From contig NZ_BCSS01000011.1 in assembly GCF_001570985.1 (NCBI RefSeq), positions 1 through 64,000 of the forward strand: 64,000 nucleotides of DNA, read 5' to 3'. The position numbers were made by a program, and so were the translations under genes. This DNA comes from Janibacter limosus NBRC 16128. Its GTDB lineage: Bacteria > Actinomycetota > Actinomycetes > Actinomycetales > Dermatophilaceae. Of this stretch, positions 9,063 through 33,422 are shown piece after piece. Under the pieces are notes generated by a model, which worked only from the letters and a program-made list of their open reading frames with translations, had not been told where the DNA came from and made no database searches. How positions within the stretch are numbered: the stretch's first letter is position 1; every line of letters starts with the position of its first letter.

Positions 9063-10520
9063 TCAGGCCTTGGGGAAGACCGGCGGGTGGACCTTGGCCA
9101 TCTCCTCGAGGACGCGCACGACCTGGCAGGAGTAGCCGAACTCGTTGTCGTACCAGACGTAGAGGACCAGACGGTCACCAGCGGTGATCGTCGCGCGGCC
9201 GTCGACGATGCCCGCGTGGCGGTTGCCGACGAAGTCGGTGGAGACCACCTCGGGGCTGTCGATGTAGTCGAGCTGCTTGTGCAGGCCGCCGTAGAGCGAG
9301 GCCTCGCGCAGGAAGTCGTTGAGCGTGTCGCGCTCGACCGGCTTCTCGAGAGTGAGGTTGAGGATCGCCATCGAGACATTGGGCGTGGGGACGCGCACCG
9401 AGTTGCCGGTGAGCTTGCCCTCGAGCTCGGGCAGCGCCTTGGCCACGGCCTTGGCCGCGCCGGTCTCGGTGAGCACCATGTTGAGCGCCGCCGAGCGGCC
9501 GCGACGCTCGCCCTTGTGGAAGTTGTCGATGAGGTTCTGGTCGTTGGTGAAGGAGTGCACCGTCTCGATGTGCCCACCGACGACGCCGTACTCGTCGTTG
9601 ATGACCTTGAGCGCGGGGACGATCGCGTTGGTCGTGCAGGAGGCAGCGGTGACGATCTTGTCGTCGGTGCCGATCATCGCGTCGTTGATGCCGCTGACGA
9701 TGTTGGGCAGGCCGCCCTTGCCGGGGGCCGTGAGCAGGACACGGGAGACGCCCGGGCACTGGAGGTGCTGGGAGAGCCCCTCGTCGTCGCGCCACCGGCC
9801 GGTGTTGTCGACGACGACGGCGTCACTGATGCCGTACTGGGTGTAGTCGACGCTCGACGGGCTGTCGGAGTAGATGACCTGGATGAGCGTGCCGTTGGCG
9901 AGGATGGTGTTGGCCTCCTCGTCGACAGTGATCGTGCCGGCGAAAGAGCCGTGGACGGAGTCGCGGCGCAGCAGGCTCGCGCGCTTGGACAGGTCGTTGT
10001 CAGCGCCCTTGCGCACGACGATGGCGCGCAGGCGCAGGCCCTGACCGGTGCCGGCGTGCTCGACGAGAATGCGGGCGAGCAGGCGGCCGATGCGACCGAA
10101 GCCGTAGAGGACCACGTCGGTGCTCGGGAGGGCATTGCTGCCGTGCTTGCCGACGACGTCATCGAGCTCGGCGCGCAGGAAGTCCTCGAGCGCGACGCCC
10201 TCGCCGGCCTCGAGGTGACGGCGGTGCAGCCGGGCGATGTCGACCGACGCAGGACCAGGCTGGAGGGCGGTGAGCGCCTCGAGCAGGGGCAGGGTGTCGT
10301 CGACGTTGAGCTCGATGTCGACGCGACGCGCAAAGCGGTGCGCCTTGAGCACATCGGTGGGCGACTGGCCGAGGAGGGTGCGGCCGTGGATCGCCGTCAC
10401 GACGCCGTACTCACGGTAGAGACGGCCCACGAGAGGGATGATCGCCTCGGCCTTCGCCTGTCGGTCGGCCCACTCGGCCAAGTGGTCGTCTGCTGCGGTG
10501 CTCTGCGGCGTCGTCGTCAT
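9063..10520 (-). CDS. Glyceraldehyde-3-phosphate dehydrogenase, long form
   Basis: Oxidises (or in the gluconeogenic direction forms) glyceraldehyde 3-phosphate with NAD(P). The 485-residue protein carries an extra helical N-terminal region of about 130 residues before a standard GAPDH: Rossmann motif YGFGRIGR (139-146), catalytic Cys in AASCTTN (C295), and phosphate-site TGAAKAVAKALPEL. The length and extension resemble the second, long GAPDH of corynebacteria (GapB type), proposed to act in gluconeogenesis. That fits a neighbouring pyruvate phosphate dikinase gene but is inference. The ATG at 10520 was chosen because it follows TAATCT closely; an upstream in-frame start at 10580 would add 20 unconserved residues. 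Confidence 0.9.
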   Translation of the reverse strand: MTTTPQSTAADDHLAEWADRQAKAEAIIPLVGRLYREYGVVTAIHGRTLLGQSPTDVLKAHRFARRVDIELNVDDTLPLLEALTALQPGPASVDIARLHRRHLEAGEGVALEDFLRAELDDVVGKHGSNALPSTDVVLYGFGRIGRLLARILVEHAGTGQGLRLRAIVVRKGADNDLSKRASLLRRDSVHGSFAGTITVDEEANTILANGTLIQVIYSDSPSSVDYTQYGISDAVVVDNTGRWRDDEGLSQHLQCPGVSRVLLTAPGKGGLPNIVSGINDAMIGTDDKIVTAASCTTNAIVPALKVINDEYGVVGGHIETVHSFTNDQNLIDNFHKGERRGRSAALNMVLTETGAAKAVAKALPELEGKLTGNSVRVPTPNVSMAILNLTLEKPVERDTLNDFLREASLYGGLHKQLDYIDSPEVVSTDFVGNRHAGIVDGRATITAGDRLVLYVWYDNEFGYSCQVVRVLEEMAKVHPPVFPKA

Positions 10521-10596
10521 GGACCCCAAGATTAGTCGGTCGCCGGGATGACCTGTCCTCCGGTCCACGGTGATGTCCACCGCTCGCCCACCCCGG

Positions 10597-11499
10597 TCAG
10601 CCCGGGGTGACCGAGTACAGCGCCTGCACCTTGGACCCTCCCGAGCAGGTGAGCTGGTGCGGGGCGCTCATCGTGCGCACGACCTGGCGAAGGGAGGTCC
10701 GCTCACCGGCATCGACGTGCACCACCCAGGAGTCCTCCCCGGTCGTCTCGACGCGGGGCGGGGCGATGTCCGGGAGGCGCACATCCGGCTCGCTGCCGAG
10801 GACGTCGTGGACCGCCACCTGGGCGGCCGGGTGCCAGGAGCAGCGTCCACGCCAGCGGTTGAGGTCCACGCGCCCGTCGAGGTGATCGAGGATGACCTGC
10901 GGTGCGACATCGCCGTTGAGCCGCCCGTACTGGGAGCCCTCGGGCAGGAGGGCGACATTGCCGGCAAAGCGGTCCCCACCGAGATGCGTGGTCTCCCACA
11001 CCGCCCCGGGCAGTGCGTCGTCGAGAACGGCCGCGACGACCCGGCCGTCGATGGCGCAGCAGACGTCCTTGCGGCCGTGGGTGCACACGAGCAGCAGCGG
11101 CTCAGGGCTCGGATCGGGCAGGTCCTCGAAGCGGGCGGCGAGCGCGACGAGGTCCTCGGGACGACGCCAGGTGGCCCGCCCGACGAGCCCGCGGCGCACA
11201 TCGACGAGGAAGACCGGGCTGTCGCCGTCGGCGCCGACATCAGCCTCGACCAGCTCGCCCTCCTGGCGGCCGTGCCGGCGGATCAGCTGCAGCCGAGCCC
11301 CGAAGCGGCCCATGGCCGCAGACAGCTCCGTGGCGACCTCGCTGAGGAAGTCCGCCTCGATCGGCTTGGCCGGCCACGGGCCGGGGTGGGCCACGAGCAG
11401 CCAGTAGCGCGCGGGCACGGCCGTGCCCACCGGTACGTCGCCGCGCTCGAGGGCGGCGAGCGAGCACCGGAACCGCTGGGCTGACGGGGACGCGCTCAC
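10597..11499 (-). CDS. Sucrase/ferredoxin-like family protein
   Basis: Thioredoxin-fold ferredoxin-like protein of the sucraseferredoxin family, 300 residues; probably binds an iron-sulfur cluster and acts in an unknown redox process. The diagnostic segment is LLVCTHGRKDVCCAIDGR, giving Cys spacing like that of thioredoxin-like [2Fe-2S] ferredoxins, followed by WETTHLGGDRFAGNVALLP, which is strongly characteristic. The C-terminal half holds GRCSWHPAAQVA and CSGG. The start is GTG at 11499: TAGGGT at 11512-11507 (minus strand) lies seven bases upstream, a leaderless layout. That hexamer overlaps the stop of the oxygenase gene upstream. Confidence 0.88.
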   Translation of the reverse strand: MSASPSAQRFRCSLAALERGDVPVGTAVPARYWLLVAHPGPWPAKPIEADFLSEVATELSAAMGRFGARLQLIRRHGRQEGELVEADVGADGDSPVFLVDVRRGLVGRATWRRPEDLVALAARFEDLPDPSPEPLLLVCTHGRKDVCCAIDGRVVAAVLDDALPGAVWETTHLGGDRFAGNVALLPEGSQYGRLNGDVAPQVILDHLDGRVDLNRWRGRCSWHPAAQVAVHDVLGSEPDVRLPDIAPPRVETTGEDSWVVHVDAGERTSLRQVVRTMSAPHQLTCSGGSKVQALYSVTPG

Positions 11500-11509
11500 A
11501 CCGGCGACC

Positions 11510-12745
11510 CTACGCGGGCGGGGGCTGCGCGGGGACTGCGACCCCGGCGACGACGAGTCGGCGGGTCAGGTCCGGGGCGAGCACCGTGGCGTCGCCGACC
11601 GCGAGCCACGCCGTGACGTCGTCGACCTCCGTCGCGGTGAGGGGCAGCCGCCCGGCCCTGCTGACGAGGACGGCCCCGTCGGCGGACGGTTCCAGCGACG
11701 CCTGCAGGTGCTTGCGGGGCGCGATGGGCAGTCCGTCCGCTCCGTCGGCCAGCGCCTGCGTGGTGCTGAGCGGTGAGATCGGTGCGGGCCGGCCGGCAGA
11801 TCGCGACCGGGCGGCCAGCTGGGCCGCGACGGCGGACTCGTCGACGGCGGCGATCGCGTCGAGGAGGGCCGCGCGCACTGCAGCCAGGTCGTGGGCGAGG
11901 TCCGCGGGATCGGTGACGTCCACACCCGGACGCAGGGAGGTCCGATGCTCCGGGAGGTCGGCAAGCGCCCTGCGCGCCGTGTCGAGGACGGCTTCGGCGA
12001 CGTGCCCTCGGTGCCACACGTGGACGCCGACGGTCAGGTGCGTGCTGACCCCGCCGAGCGCGGTCGCCGAATGCAGCCAACCGCGAGGGATGTACAGCGC
12101 GTCGCCGGGGCGCAGGGTCACGTCGAGGTGCGCCTCCCCCTTCGCCGCCTCGTCGACCGCCTGGCGGTGGTCCTGCCAGGGCTGATCACGAAGGGGGTGG
12201 GGCTGGACGGGTGGGTGCAGGCGCCAGTGCTTGTCCCCGCCGACCTGCAGCACGAAGACGTCGTGCACGTCGTAGTGGGCGGCGAAGCCGCGGCTCTGCG
12301 GGGGCGTGACATAGGCGTTGACCTGCACGGGATGCCCGAGGTCTGCCGACAGGTCCTGGGCGAAATCGAGCACCGGGGGGTGGGTCCGGTGCAGGCCCTG
12401 CAGGACGAGGGTGTGGCCTTCGGCGAAGAGTCGCAGCAGCGCCGTGTCGTCCAGCTGGTCGCTCACCCCGGCTCCGACACCGCCGCCACGGGTGAAGTCA
12501 CCGTCGGCGAGGGTGCGCCCTTCGCGGGCCACGCGCAGGAAGGGGGTGCGCAGGCCGTGCACCGAGAGCAGCCGGTCGACGGCACGGTTGTCGAGCAGGT
12601 CGTCGAAGGGCGCCGGCAGCGCCTGCGCCGGGACGTGCCTGGGCTCGTGACCCCAGGATGCGGCGAGCTCCTGCGGCTGGAGGTCGGTGACGCGGGCGAG
12701 GCCGGCGCACCGCTCAGGTGCACCGGCCTCGTCAGGGTGGGTCAC
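11510..12745 (-). CDS. JmjC/cupin-4 family 2-oxoglutarate oxygenase
   Basis: Predicted Fe(II)/2-oxoglutarate-dependent protein or peptide hydroxylase of the cupin-4 (RoxA/NO66-like) family, 411 residues. The JmjC core shows the metal pair HYDVHDVFVLQV (HxD), then KHWRLHPP, and the distal His in PRGWLHSA. The C-terminal third (about 270-411) looks like the helical and winged-helix tail of bacterial ribosomal oxygenases. The GTG start directly abuts the TGA of the small Gly/Asp/Ala-repeat gene at 12746, so the pair is coupled. In known family members the substrates are ribosomal proteins. Here the upstream repeat protein is a candidate substrate, which is inference. Confidence 0.85.
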   Translation of the reverse strand: MTHPDEAGAPERCAGLARVTDLQPQELAASWGHEPRHVPAQALPAPFDDLLDNRAVDRLLSVHGLRTPFLRVAREGRTLADGDFTRGGGVGAGVSDQLDDTALLRLFAEGHTLVLQGLHRTHPPVLDFAQDLSADLGHPVQVNAYVTPPQSRGFAAHYDVHDVFVLQVGGDKHWRLHPPVQPHPLRDQPWQDHRQAVDEAAKGEAHLDVTLRPGDALYIPRGWLHSATALGGVSTHLTVGVHVWHRGHVAEAVLDTARRALADLPEHRTSLRPGVDVTDPADLAHDLAAVRAALLDAIAAVDESAVAAQLAARSRSAGRPAPISPLSTTQALADGADGLPIAPRKHLQASLEPSADGAVLVSRAGRLPLTATEVDDVTAWLAVGDATVLAPDLTRRLVVAGVAVPAQPPPA

Positions 12746-13006
12746 TCAGAGGCCCCGCTCCGTGGGAGCAGCACCGCCGTCGGCACCGCCGTCGCCGGCA
12801 GCACCATCAGCGCCACCGTCACCAGCAGCGCCGTCGCCAGCAGCACCATCGGCACCGCCATCGCCACCGTCACCAGCAGCGCCATCGCCGGCAGCACCAT
12901 CGGCGCCACCGTCGCCAGCAGAACCATCGGACTGCGGGGCCTGGGTCGGCACGCCGCCGATGGCCTCCTCGGGCAGGTCGGGGGTCTCGTTCGGAGGCTG
13001 CGTCAT
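12746..13006 (-). CDS. Small Gly/Asp/Ala-repeat protein, possible precursor peptide
   Basis: 86-residue protein with an ordinary N-terminal part (MTQPPNETPDLPEEAIGG) and a low-complexity tail built from AGDGGADGA and AGDGA units, ending APTERGL. No Cys, Lys or aromatic residue is present. ATG at 13006 is preceded by AAGGAG eight bases upstream; longer in-frame starts lack a site. It ends one base before the start of the JmjC/cupin oxygenase. A leader-like N-terminus, an Asp-rich repetitive core and an adjacent hydroxylase suggest a modified peptide or hydroxylase substrate, but nothing in the sequence proves it. Alternatively it is a disordered regulatory protein. Function is not recognised. 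Confidence 0.7.
   Translation of the reverse strand: MTQPPNETPDLPEEAIGGVPTQAPQSDGSAGDGGADGAAGDGAAGDGGDGGADGAAGDGAAGDGGADGAAGDGGADGGAAPTERGL
12782..12930. repeat. Tandem repeats coding for the GDG/ADG tail
   Basis: Degenerate tandem units such as GCACCATCGGCGCCACCGTC and GCCGTCGCCGGCA recur through the 3' part of the 86-residue gene. Unit number is likely to vary between strains by slippage. Confidence 0.65.
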
Positions 13007-13152
13007 GGTGCTTCTCCTTCGTCTGGGGTGTGGACAGGCATCGTGCCCATACCCCCTGTCCATCGGACCATGCGCTCTCGAGGCGGACCACGCGGCGCGC
13101 CTCGTCAGCCCACGATGGATCCGCTTGTGGCACAACGCGTTACTGTCATTTC

Positions 13153-16437: not shown

Positions 16438-17196
16438 TCAGACGGCGTCGAGGTACTTGCCGAGGATCTCCGAGACGTCCTTGCTGGTCTTCTTGGTGAC
16501 GGAGGTGATCAGGTAGGTGGTCCCGCCCTTTTCGCCAGCGCACTGCATCGTCGAGGACATCGAGCCGCAGTGGTAGTCACCGACCTTTTCGTCCTTGTCC
16601 CAGACGGCCTCGAAGTCGCTCGGCTTGATGGCGTCGCTGGAGACGACGCTGATGGTGTCGGAGCCCTTGGTGTAGACCGCGGTCACCTGGCCGGCAGCGT
16701 CACTCGTCTTGCCCTTCTTCCACCCGTCGAACTCGTCGGGGAAGTCACCGCCACCGGCGGCGGAGGAGGACTCGCTCGAGGTCTCGCTGGTGGGCTCGGA
16801 CGTGGTCTCGCTCGTCGGCTCCGTGGTGGAGGACTCGCTCGTCGGCTCCGACGTCGAGCTCTCGCTCGTCGACTGGGAGGTCGACGACGATGACGAGGAC
16901 TCCTCGTCATCGCCACGGAGGACGAAGAATCCGCCGATGCAGCACAGGAGGAGGATCAGTGCGACACCGCCGGCGATACCGGCGATGAGGCCCTTGCCCG
17001 GGCCCTTCTTCGGCGGCTGACCGCCGGGGCCACCCGTGGGACCACCGAAGTTGCCGGGGGGCGGACCCCCCTGGCCACCGTGGCCGGGCTGGCCGTACGG
17101 ACCGGGCTGACCCGGCGTCTGGGGCGTCTGCCCGTAAGGACTGCCCGGAGGCGGAGGTGTGTTCGGGCCGCTCGGCCCCCCTGGTGGTGTGGTCAT
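16438..17196 (-). CDS. Single-pass membrane protein with Pro/Gly-rich N-terminus and Ser/Thr-rich stalk
   Basis: 252-residue bitopic protein of unknown function. Residues 1-65 are a cytoplasmic Pro/Gly-rich tract, residues about 72-92 one transmembrane helix, residues about 95-150 a Ser/Thr/Glu repeat stalk (units such as TSESSTSEPTSE), and the last 100 residues a globular extracellular domain with two Cys (HCGSMSSTMQC), probably a disulfide. This design is common in actinobacterial surface proteins. ATG at 17196 was preferred to the GTG 10 codons upstream because the Pro/Gly tract begins there. Its 5' region diverges from the 6C-like RNA. Confidence 0.8.
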   Translation of the reverse strand: MTTPPGGPSGPNTPPPPGSPYGQTPQTPGQPGPYGQPGHGGQGGPPPGNFGGPTGGPGGQPPKKGPGKGLIAGIAGGVALILLLCCIGGFFVLRGDDEESSSSSSTSQSTSESSTSEPTSESSTTEPTSETTSEPTSETSSESSSAAGGGDFPDEFDGWKKGKTSDAAGQVTAVYTKGSDTISVVSSDAIKPSDFEAVWDKDEKVGDYHCGSMSSTMQCAGEKGGTTYLITSVTKKTSKDVSEILGKYLDAV

Positions 17197-17254
17197 GGAC
17201 CCAATCGTCACACAAGCCCGCCCCATACGACAGATCCACGAGGAGGTGCGGGCA

Positions 17255-33350: not shown

Positions 33351-33422
33351 GACGGTCGCTGCGCGACCTCCTCAGGGAACGTTGCGACGATCGCTGCGCG
33401 ACCTCCTCAGGGAACGTTGCGA
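33351..33422. repeat. 35-bp tandem direct repeat with internal dyad
   Basis: Two copies (33351-33385 and 33386-33420) differ at one base: GACGGTCGCTGCGCGACC and GACGATCGCTGCGCGACC, each followed by TCCTCAGGGAACGTTGC. Each copy has a short dyad GGTCGC-TGC-GCGACC or GATCGC-TGC-GCGACC. It lies between the secreted protein gene and the NAD synthetase promoter and resembles the CTTCGAGACGGTCGC repeats found between genes in related actinobacteria. Confidence 0.75.

Follow-up and report, generated by a model that had tools for sequence, protein, structure and literature searches.

An Asp-rich repeat protein encoded beside a JmjC_2 oxygenase in Actinomycetota: a candidate peptide-modification pair

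The ribosomal oxygenases NO66 (RIOX1), MINA53 (RIOX2), and YcfD/RoxA share with the oxygenase analyzed here a JmjC_2 domain, an HxD...H motif, a 2-oxoglutarate (2OG) lysine, and helical and winged-helix domains. CinX and DurX are RiPP enzymes that beta-hydroxylate Asp. The same modification in RiPPs is attributed, in passages of the respective sources, to the MNIO PesHI (PMC13060819) and to SmaO (cited in PMC13097080), and BipG and PbsQ are described in parts of two papers as JmjC-type hydroxylases of Orn in biphenomycin RiPPs (PMC12707348, PMC12257519). FIH, also a JmjC-type hydroxylase, oxidizes Asn, Asp, and His residues, according to a passage of PMC9994133. A section of Bregman et al. (2025) reports that PF08007 domains of fish and algae carry a fused RRE-like fold, and a single sentence there places the closest bacterial relatives in 'RiPP-like genomic contexts' (PMC12710340).

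Here, we describe a gene pair found in a 64,000-nucleotide stretch of the Janibacter limosus NBRC 16128 genome (positions 1 to 64,000 of contig NZ_BCSS01000011.1; hereafter the window), in which a small Asp-rich repeat protein is encoded next to a JmjC_2 oxygenase. The recurrence of this pairing across Actinomycetota suggests a little-described peptide-modification system, the product of which is probably a hydroxylated, Asp-rich peptide.

The gene pair in the window and the fold of its oxygenase

The precursor gene (Table 1) starts with ATG and encodes the N-terminus MTQPPNETPDLPEEAIGGVPTQAPQ followed by an Asp/Gly/Ala repeat, a tandem array that is also detected by TRF. The protein lacks His and Lys; its only Asn is in the leader, and its only Arg lies close to the C-terminus, outside the repeats. 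By eye, its leader segment LPEEAIGGV aligns to the motif L-S/T-D-E/D-D-I-x-T-V of distant relatives. The TGA of the precursor gene abuts the GTG of the oxygenase ORF with zero gap (TGAGTG), and the oxygenase matches the JmjC_2 profile PF08007 with 93.4 bits (curated cut-off of 22; E = 1e-26), confirming the arrangement of an 86-residue repeat protein directly before a 2OG oxygenase that had been proposed in a preliminary description of the locus. Elsewhere in the window, a direct repeat of 35 bp (2.1 copies, 97 per cent identical) occupies positions 33351–33422, and the gene at 16438–17226 on the minus strand encodes a protein with a Pro/Gly-rich N-terminus, a hydrophobic stretch (by eye), and a long Ser/Thr/Glu low-complexity linker.

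Table 1. Features of the gene pair and of the gene that follows it, with positions in the window.
Feature	Positions	Strand	Basis
Shine-Dalgarno AAGGAG of the precursor gene	13014..13019	-	Read in the sequence; 7 nt before ATG
86-aa Asp/Gly/Ala-repeat protein, proposed precursor/substrate	12746..13006	-	Comparable ORF at 78/80 homologous oxygenases
Leader-like N-terminus, residues 1-25	12932..13006	-	Inference
Repeat core, residues 26-79, DG-containing units GDGGADGA/GDGAA	12770..12931	-	Sequence, TRF, codon differences
411-aa JmjC_2 Fe(II)/2-oxoglutarate oxygenase, proposed maturase	11510..12745	-	Profile, alignment, model
HxD iron-ligand motif (H157, D159)	12269..12277	-	Invariant in alignment; aligned to NO66
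Distal iron-ligand His (H225)	12071..12073	-	Invariant in alignment; aligned to NO66
C-terminal winged-helix, RRE-like domain, residues ~337-407	11525..11737	-	Model and structural comparison
Suc_Fer-like (PF06999) protein, third gene of presumed operon	10597..11499	-	Profile match

The HxD motif and distal His of the oxygenase are intact, as the preliminary description had read them: H157, D159, and H225, together with K172, are invariant in all 15 aligned homologs, each of which matches PF08007, and they align with the residues that we take to be the iron ligands and the 2OG lysine of NO66. The invariant S234 aligns with the pocket Ser of NO66, presumably residue 421. This Ser hydrogen-bonds the target residue, as stated in a passage of PMC9994133. 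In an AlphaFold2 model (mean pLDDT of 88.9), the oxygenase has the three-domain ROX layout, with JmjC, helical dimerization, and winged-helix domains. Over its full length, the model aligns to NO66 with a Z score of 27.7 (rmsd of 5.9, 384 residues aligned), to MINA53 with 25.8, and to YcfD with 20.3; the protein thus models as a ribosomal-oxygenase fold.

When modeled alone (pLDDT of 88.1), the C-terminal domain has as its top match the corresponding domain of NO66 (4cck; Z of 8.0, rmsd of 3.6, 88 residues aligned), and next after it comes the RRE of PbtF (Z of 6.5, rmsd of 3.1, 69 aligned). Further matches are MccB (6.3, 4.1, 70), McbB (6.1, 2.5, 64), TbiB1 (5.9, 3.1, 66), lasso B1 (5.4, 2.9, 60), and PqqD (5.1, 2.5, 71), structures that we take to be RRE-bearing. 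All of the RRE-like Z scores lie below 8, and the C-terminal domain of YcfD scores alike (5.1); unrelated chains, including ribosomal proteins, score 3.8 and lower. DSSP assigns three main strands and two helices to the model; an RRE is expected to have three helices. Assignment of an RRE by sequence profile was rejected, as hhalign against 17 PqqD sequences returned a probability of 0.6 per cent, and no PqqD match was found in a Pfam scan of the 15 homologs. The C-terminal domain of the model therefore resembles an RRE weakly in fold and not by sequence profile, and it is a candidate RRE.

Recurrence of the pairing and composition of the precursors

The oxygenase has at least 558 relatives, the best 80 of which form our set of named genomes. 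These best 80 come nearly all from Actinomycetota (one is labeled as an unverified Bacillus sp.), and their genera include Janibacter, Phycicoccus, Streptomyces, Arthrobacter, Geodermatophilus, Nocardioides, Kribbella, and Pseudonocardia, among others. An Asp-repeat ORF lies immediately 5' of the oxygenase in 78 of the best 80 of at least 558 relatives, and the remaining two loci (L057 and L101), which are cut by a contig end, still read DGGADGGS-stop and GDGGADGPAE-stop. To pass, an ORF needed four or more repeat words; among the 4771 scanned ORFs of the 80 loci, each 40 aa or longer, no others passed. With a threshold of at least three words, 78 of 80 slots and four other ORFs pass, and with six words, 77 of 80 slots and none besides. 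The words and thresholds were picked after inspection of the first sequences. The word test was adopted because an earlier composition-based test (69 of 80 slots passing, 11 failing) missed, for example, Streptomyces repeats with fewer Asp.

The pairing also recurs in two further samples. Among 58 relatives, the oxygenase was matched in 29 genomes, and in 26 of these the best locus carries an Asp-repeat ORF immediately 5' of the oxygenase, counting as paired L002 and L016, which are cut by a contig end or frame-broken and in which the repeat is visible. The exceptions are L017 (same genus), L026, the genome of which has a second locus with the pair (L031), and the very weak L030. In a phylum-wide sample, the oxygenase profile matched 36 of 246 genomes (one locus per genome was used, and a second match in G084 was left out), and 32 of the 36 loci have an Asp-rich repeat ORF 5' of the oxygenase, as judged by script score and by eye. 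Here, L134 is cut by a contig end, L147 has nothing upstream, L146 has a different short peptide that ends in SDGGGTGRSDGND, and L117 (G194) has an acidic 95-aa ORF without repeats, which is possibly a degenerate or alternative substrate. A recognizable repeat precursor was not found at L017, L026, L030, L147, and L148. That homologs of the oxygenase nearly always have the repeat neighbor (78/80; 32/36) is the opposite of what the preliminary description had named as evidence against its proposal, namely, homologs usually lacking such a neighbor.

A search with the window precursor itself in the 58 relatives found it in 14 of 16 same-genus genomes, where the matching sequence adjoins the oxygenase in every case bar one contig-end fragment, and gave one weak match elsewhere (G031), not beside an oxygenase. 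The reach of this search is the genus, short of the precursors of other genera. NCBIfam holds no family for the precursor, the oxygenase, or the Suc_Fer-like protein. A phage origin of the pair was set aside, as there were only weak phage matches (four records), and so was a plasmid origin, because plasmid homologs (60 of 84 and 20 of 29 records listed) are 28–37 per cent identical and look like another subfamily.

The Suc_Fer-like gene starts ten bases past the oxygenase gene; Suc_Fer-like proteins are presumably thioredoxin-like 2Fe-2S ferredoxins. Among the best 80 of at least 558 loci, a Suc_Fer-like cluster lies directly 3' of the oxygenase in 51, representing 20 of 37 genus labels, with its PF06999 assignment taken from scans of the longest member and of the window gene. 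Terrabacter, Terracoccus, Humibacillus, and Intrasporangium are without it. A second cluster, with eight genus labels, is antisense to the repeat gene and an artifact. Every remaining gene cluster within 4 kb is found under at most 6 of the 37 genus labels in these best 80 loci. Annotation covered the Suc_Fer-like cluster, and no protease or exporter appears to be widely linked; genes for leader removal and export of RiPPs are not always linked, and unlinked ones may exist. From gene order, the system seems to comprise two or three genes. In the window, a long (505 aa) glyceraldehyde-3-phosphate dehydrogenase-type protein is encoded just 3' of the Suc_Fer-like gene (9063–10580, minus strand).

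Precursor statistics refer to 122 distinct precursors of the 135 found, with the window's own left out. Six of 141 loci had no usable start (L002, L026, L057, L083, L101, and L131), two of which (L083 and L131) have a precursor visible by eye. We dropped 13 rows: L020, L023, L032, L039, and L121 as duplicates (L121 being without another copy in the set), L016 as frame-broken at a contig end, L034 and L136 for a wrong start, L017, L146, L147, and L148 for having no repeat precursor, and L117 as acidic and not repeated. L034 was restored after its start had been corrected, and residue contents were counted in the 121 precursors without it.

The 122 precursors are 55–188 aa long, have 9–45 Asp each and a net charge of -12 to -44, and contain 32.4 per cent Gly, 19.2 per cent Asp, and 18.3 per cent Ala. 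Asp is mostly followed by Gly and preceded by Ala, with a dominant spacing of 4. None of the 121 precursors contains Cys, for which reason Cys-based RiPP chemistry was rejected; 39 are without His, 3 are without Pro, and 16 are without any H, R, K, or N after residue 20. Among H, R, K, N, P, and D, D alone is shared by all precursors. The repeat units differ by branch (GDGGADGA in Janibacter, EGPADGGAAGTPGVHDGGADGG in Streptomyces, DGTDGDATDGTDGD in deep branches, and EPTEDDENLDAPGEHSQDTGD in L145) and are unrelated to one another, yet all are Asp-rich. When each of 1104 DGGA units was compared with the next four codons, whatever these encode, the differences per site were 0.135 at the first codon position, 0.204 at the second, and 0.557 at the third, and the repeat is therefore under selection as protein. 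This strong codon-position bias, together with the failure of all other scanned ORFs to pass the word test, led us to reject a chance ORF in GC-rich DNA. A motif like L-S/T-D-E/D-D-I-x-T-V opens many deep-branch precursors; a relaxed version matched 57 of 122 N-termini (mean of 2.8 and maximum of 8 in 200 shuffles) and had no match in the remaining 65, among which are precursors from Streptomyces and Arthrobacter.

JmjC_2 genes preceded by other short peptides

In a class-level sample, PF08007 matched 49 of 148 genomes, and 50 of the 56 match rows were read, some of their loci being shared with the phylum sample. An Asp-rich upstream ORF is present in 30 of these 50 rows (29 with repeats plus L188, which is acidic without repeats), and 14 rows, picked by eye, have a short peptide that follows a Shine-Dalgarno sequence and contains Asp at its end, for example ...TAGNDSDGTDSSSDFI, ...AEHSDSDGSDG, ...SDGATGDSGENRDG, and ...GATPSDGGGTGRSDGND. 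No recognizable upstream peptide was found in the remaining six rows, one of which lies at the end of a contig. Short single-core peptides with ends containing DSDGSDG, DSDGTDSSSDFI, GENRDG, RSDGND, or similar precede PF08007 genes at L203–L211, L214–L216, L171, and L176. Loci of this kind are probably separate JmjC-RiPP subtypes.

On three Streptomyces plasmids (L221, L223, and L224), an SDGND peptide is followed by a 'cupin domain-containing protein' (JmjC_2) and then by an aldo/keto reductase; a phosphotransferase comes next in the cassette of L223. In S. clavuligerus pSCL4 (L220, 3706–5101), a 48-aa peptide, MDDKKTSLEPDEIEV...DPDPFDPVI, with the leader-like motif SLEPDEIEV, is encoded directly 5' of the cupin gene, with an S9 peptidase gene and an ABC transporter gene in the vicinity. 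On the Pseudanabaena plasmid pPg_03 (L222), a cyanobacterial JmjC_2 homolog and the gene of a LanM lanthipeptide synthetase are ~2.8 kb apart.

Proposed maturation and comparison with described systems

Because the repeat neighbor is nearly always present, the predicted role of the small protein as substrate of the oxygenase has strong support on genomic grounds. We consider it fairly probable that the two form a RiPP-like pair, in which the JmjC_2 maturase oxidizes the small protein, with the Asp of D-G motifs most likely becoming beta-hydroxylated. A short, acidic N-terminal segment of the precursor would serve for recognition, and Asp-rich tandem repeats would form its core. The oxygenase would bind the precursor, plausibly via the C-terminal RRE-like domain, and oxidize the core repeatedly with Fe(II), O2, and 2-oxoglutarate. 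The likeliest reaction would yield a polyanionic peptide with many beta-hydroxyaspartates, and the Suc_Fer-like protein, where encoded, may keep the iron reduced. That the peptide binds metals or other cations is a guess. A broader reading, to which we give about even chances, is that the Actinomycetota JmjC_2 oxygenases with an RRE-like tail constitute a large 'JmjC-RiPP' maturase class with several precursor subtypes (tandem DGGA/GPADGGA, TDGD repeats, single SDGND, and DSDGSDG or DSDGTDSSSDFI ends), of which the repeat subtype would lead to poly-beta-hydroxyaspartyl peptides.

Asp is plausibly the modified residue, and its beta-hydroxylation is the leading reading because Asp alone occurs in every precursor and FIH hydroxylates aspartyl residues. 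The same pair could carry out another chemistry, such as oxidation of Gly, Ala, or Pro, hydroxylation of His at HDGG, desaturation, cross-linking, or oxidative backbone cleavage, an outcome that we regard as unlikely though far from negligible. 2OG enzymes are versatile, with FIH desaturating substrates and oxidizing several residue types in the account of one passage (PMC9994133), and part of another paper describes an alpha-KG HEXXH enzyme that cuts the peptide backbone in a different RiPP (PMC12636437). Moreover, Gly exceeds Asp in the precursors, Ala comes close to it, and Pro occurs in 118 of 121. However, Asp persists across wholly changed units (TDGD, SDGND, DSDGSDG, and EDDENLD), and His and Arg, which are known targets of ribosomal oxygenases, are absent from many cores, including that of the window.

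The fold and three-domain layout that the oxygenase is modeled to share with NO66, MINA, and YcfD, as well as the conserved NO66 pocket Ser, would also suit an ordinary ribosomal oxygenase adjoined by a small acidic regulator, inhibitor, or chaperone. We find this improbable, as the oxygenase has a patchy spread (36 of 246 phylum-sample genomes), a regulator does not need a hypervariable tandem repeat of 55–188 aa with 9–45 Asp, and other JmjC_2 subfamilies of the class sample have different short peptides, their ends containing Asp, in the same slot. The abutting TGAGTG, which suggests coupled translation, would in turn fit a translated upstream ORF or an attenuator that controls oxygenase expression and encodes a peptide without function. 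The chance of this is very small, given that precursors reach 188 aa, that the peptide is conserved with synonymous drift, that about half of the precursors have the N-terminal motif, and that at some loci a gap of up to ~120 nt separates the ORF from the extrapolated oxygenase start.

If the pair does mature a peptide by Asp beta-hydroxylation, entries annotated as 'cupin domain-containing protein' would be peptide maturases with their substrates encoded adjacent to them, and their chemistry would therefore be directly testable by co-expression. The ribosomal-oxygenase fold, with its RRE-resembling winged-helix domain, would be tied to peptide recognition, raising the question of a common ancestry of NO66-type enzymes and RiPP maturases. 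Encoded multi-site Asp hydroxylation would supply acidic peptides, possibly ones that bind metals, and a poly-beta-hydroxyaspartyl peptide would be a polyanionic biopolymer of which our literature search found no description.

FIH is eukaryotic, acts on ankyrin-repeat substrates, and, to our knowledge, is without an RRE-like domain. The PesHI, SmaO, and CinX/DurX pathways, as far as the accounts drawn on here describe them, place beta-hydroxyaspartate in a ribosomal peptide, as is proposed for the window; we know of no substrate of these enzymes with Asp-rich tandem repeats, and one or a few Asp are modified in those known to us. The paper on SmaO/SmaX could overlap with the present subject, as could a report by Xia et al. 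from 2025, which reportedly concerns macrocyclization by a 2OG enzyme in RiPPs. With BipG and PbsQ, the window shares a JmjC-type 2OG hydroxylase and a linked precursor in a RiPP pathway; in the parts of their descriptions that we compared, these enzymes belong to multi-enzyme clusters that make cross-linked macrocycles, whereas the window has a two- or three-gene unit and a multi-repeat Asp core. The window oxygenase is 16–24 per cent identical to NO66, MINA53, and YcfD in structural alignments and, unlike them, has a dedicated Asp-repeat neighbor, which, rather than ribosomal His or Arg, is its predicted substrate.

In the literature searched, on JmjC and cupin enzymes, RiPPs, ribosomal oxygenases, and hydroxyaspartate, no account of the repeat family was recognized. 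A literature search with the repeat strings found no use of them as a peptide, the single match being on pig breeding. To this extent, the view of the preliminary description that the pair is not a described system stands; it does not extend to the wider setting, as BipG and PbsQ are known and the sentence in PMC12710340 already mentions RiPP-like contexts. That sentence agrees with the pairing found here, and the proteins of section 6 of the same paper have the same RRE-like/PF08007 fusion, with no precursor described in that section. RiPP-like peptide maturation is thus the known part, and the Asp-repeat pair is new as a variant of it, not as a categorically new system.
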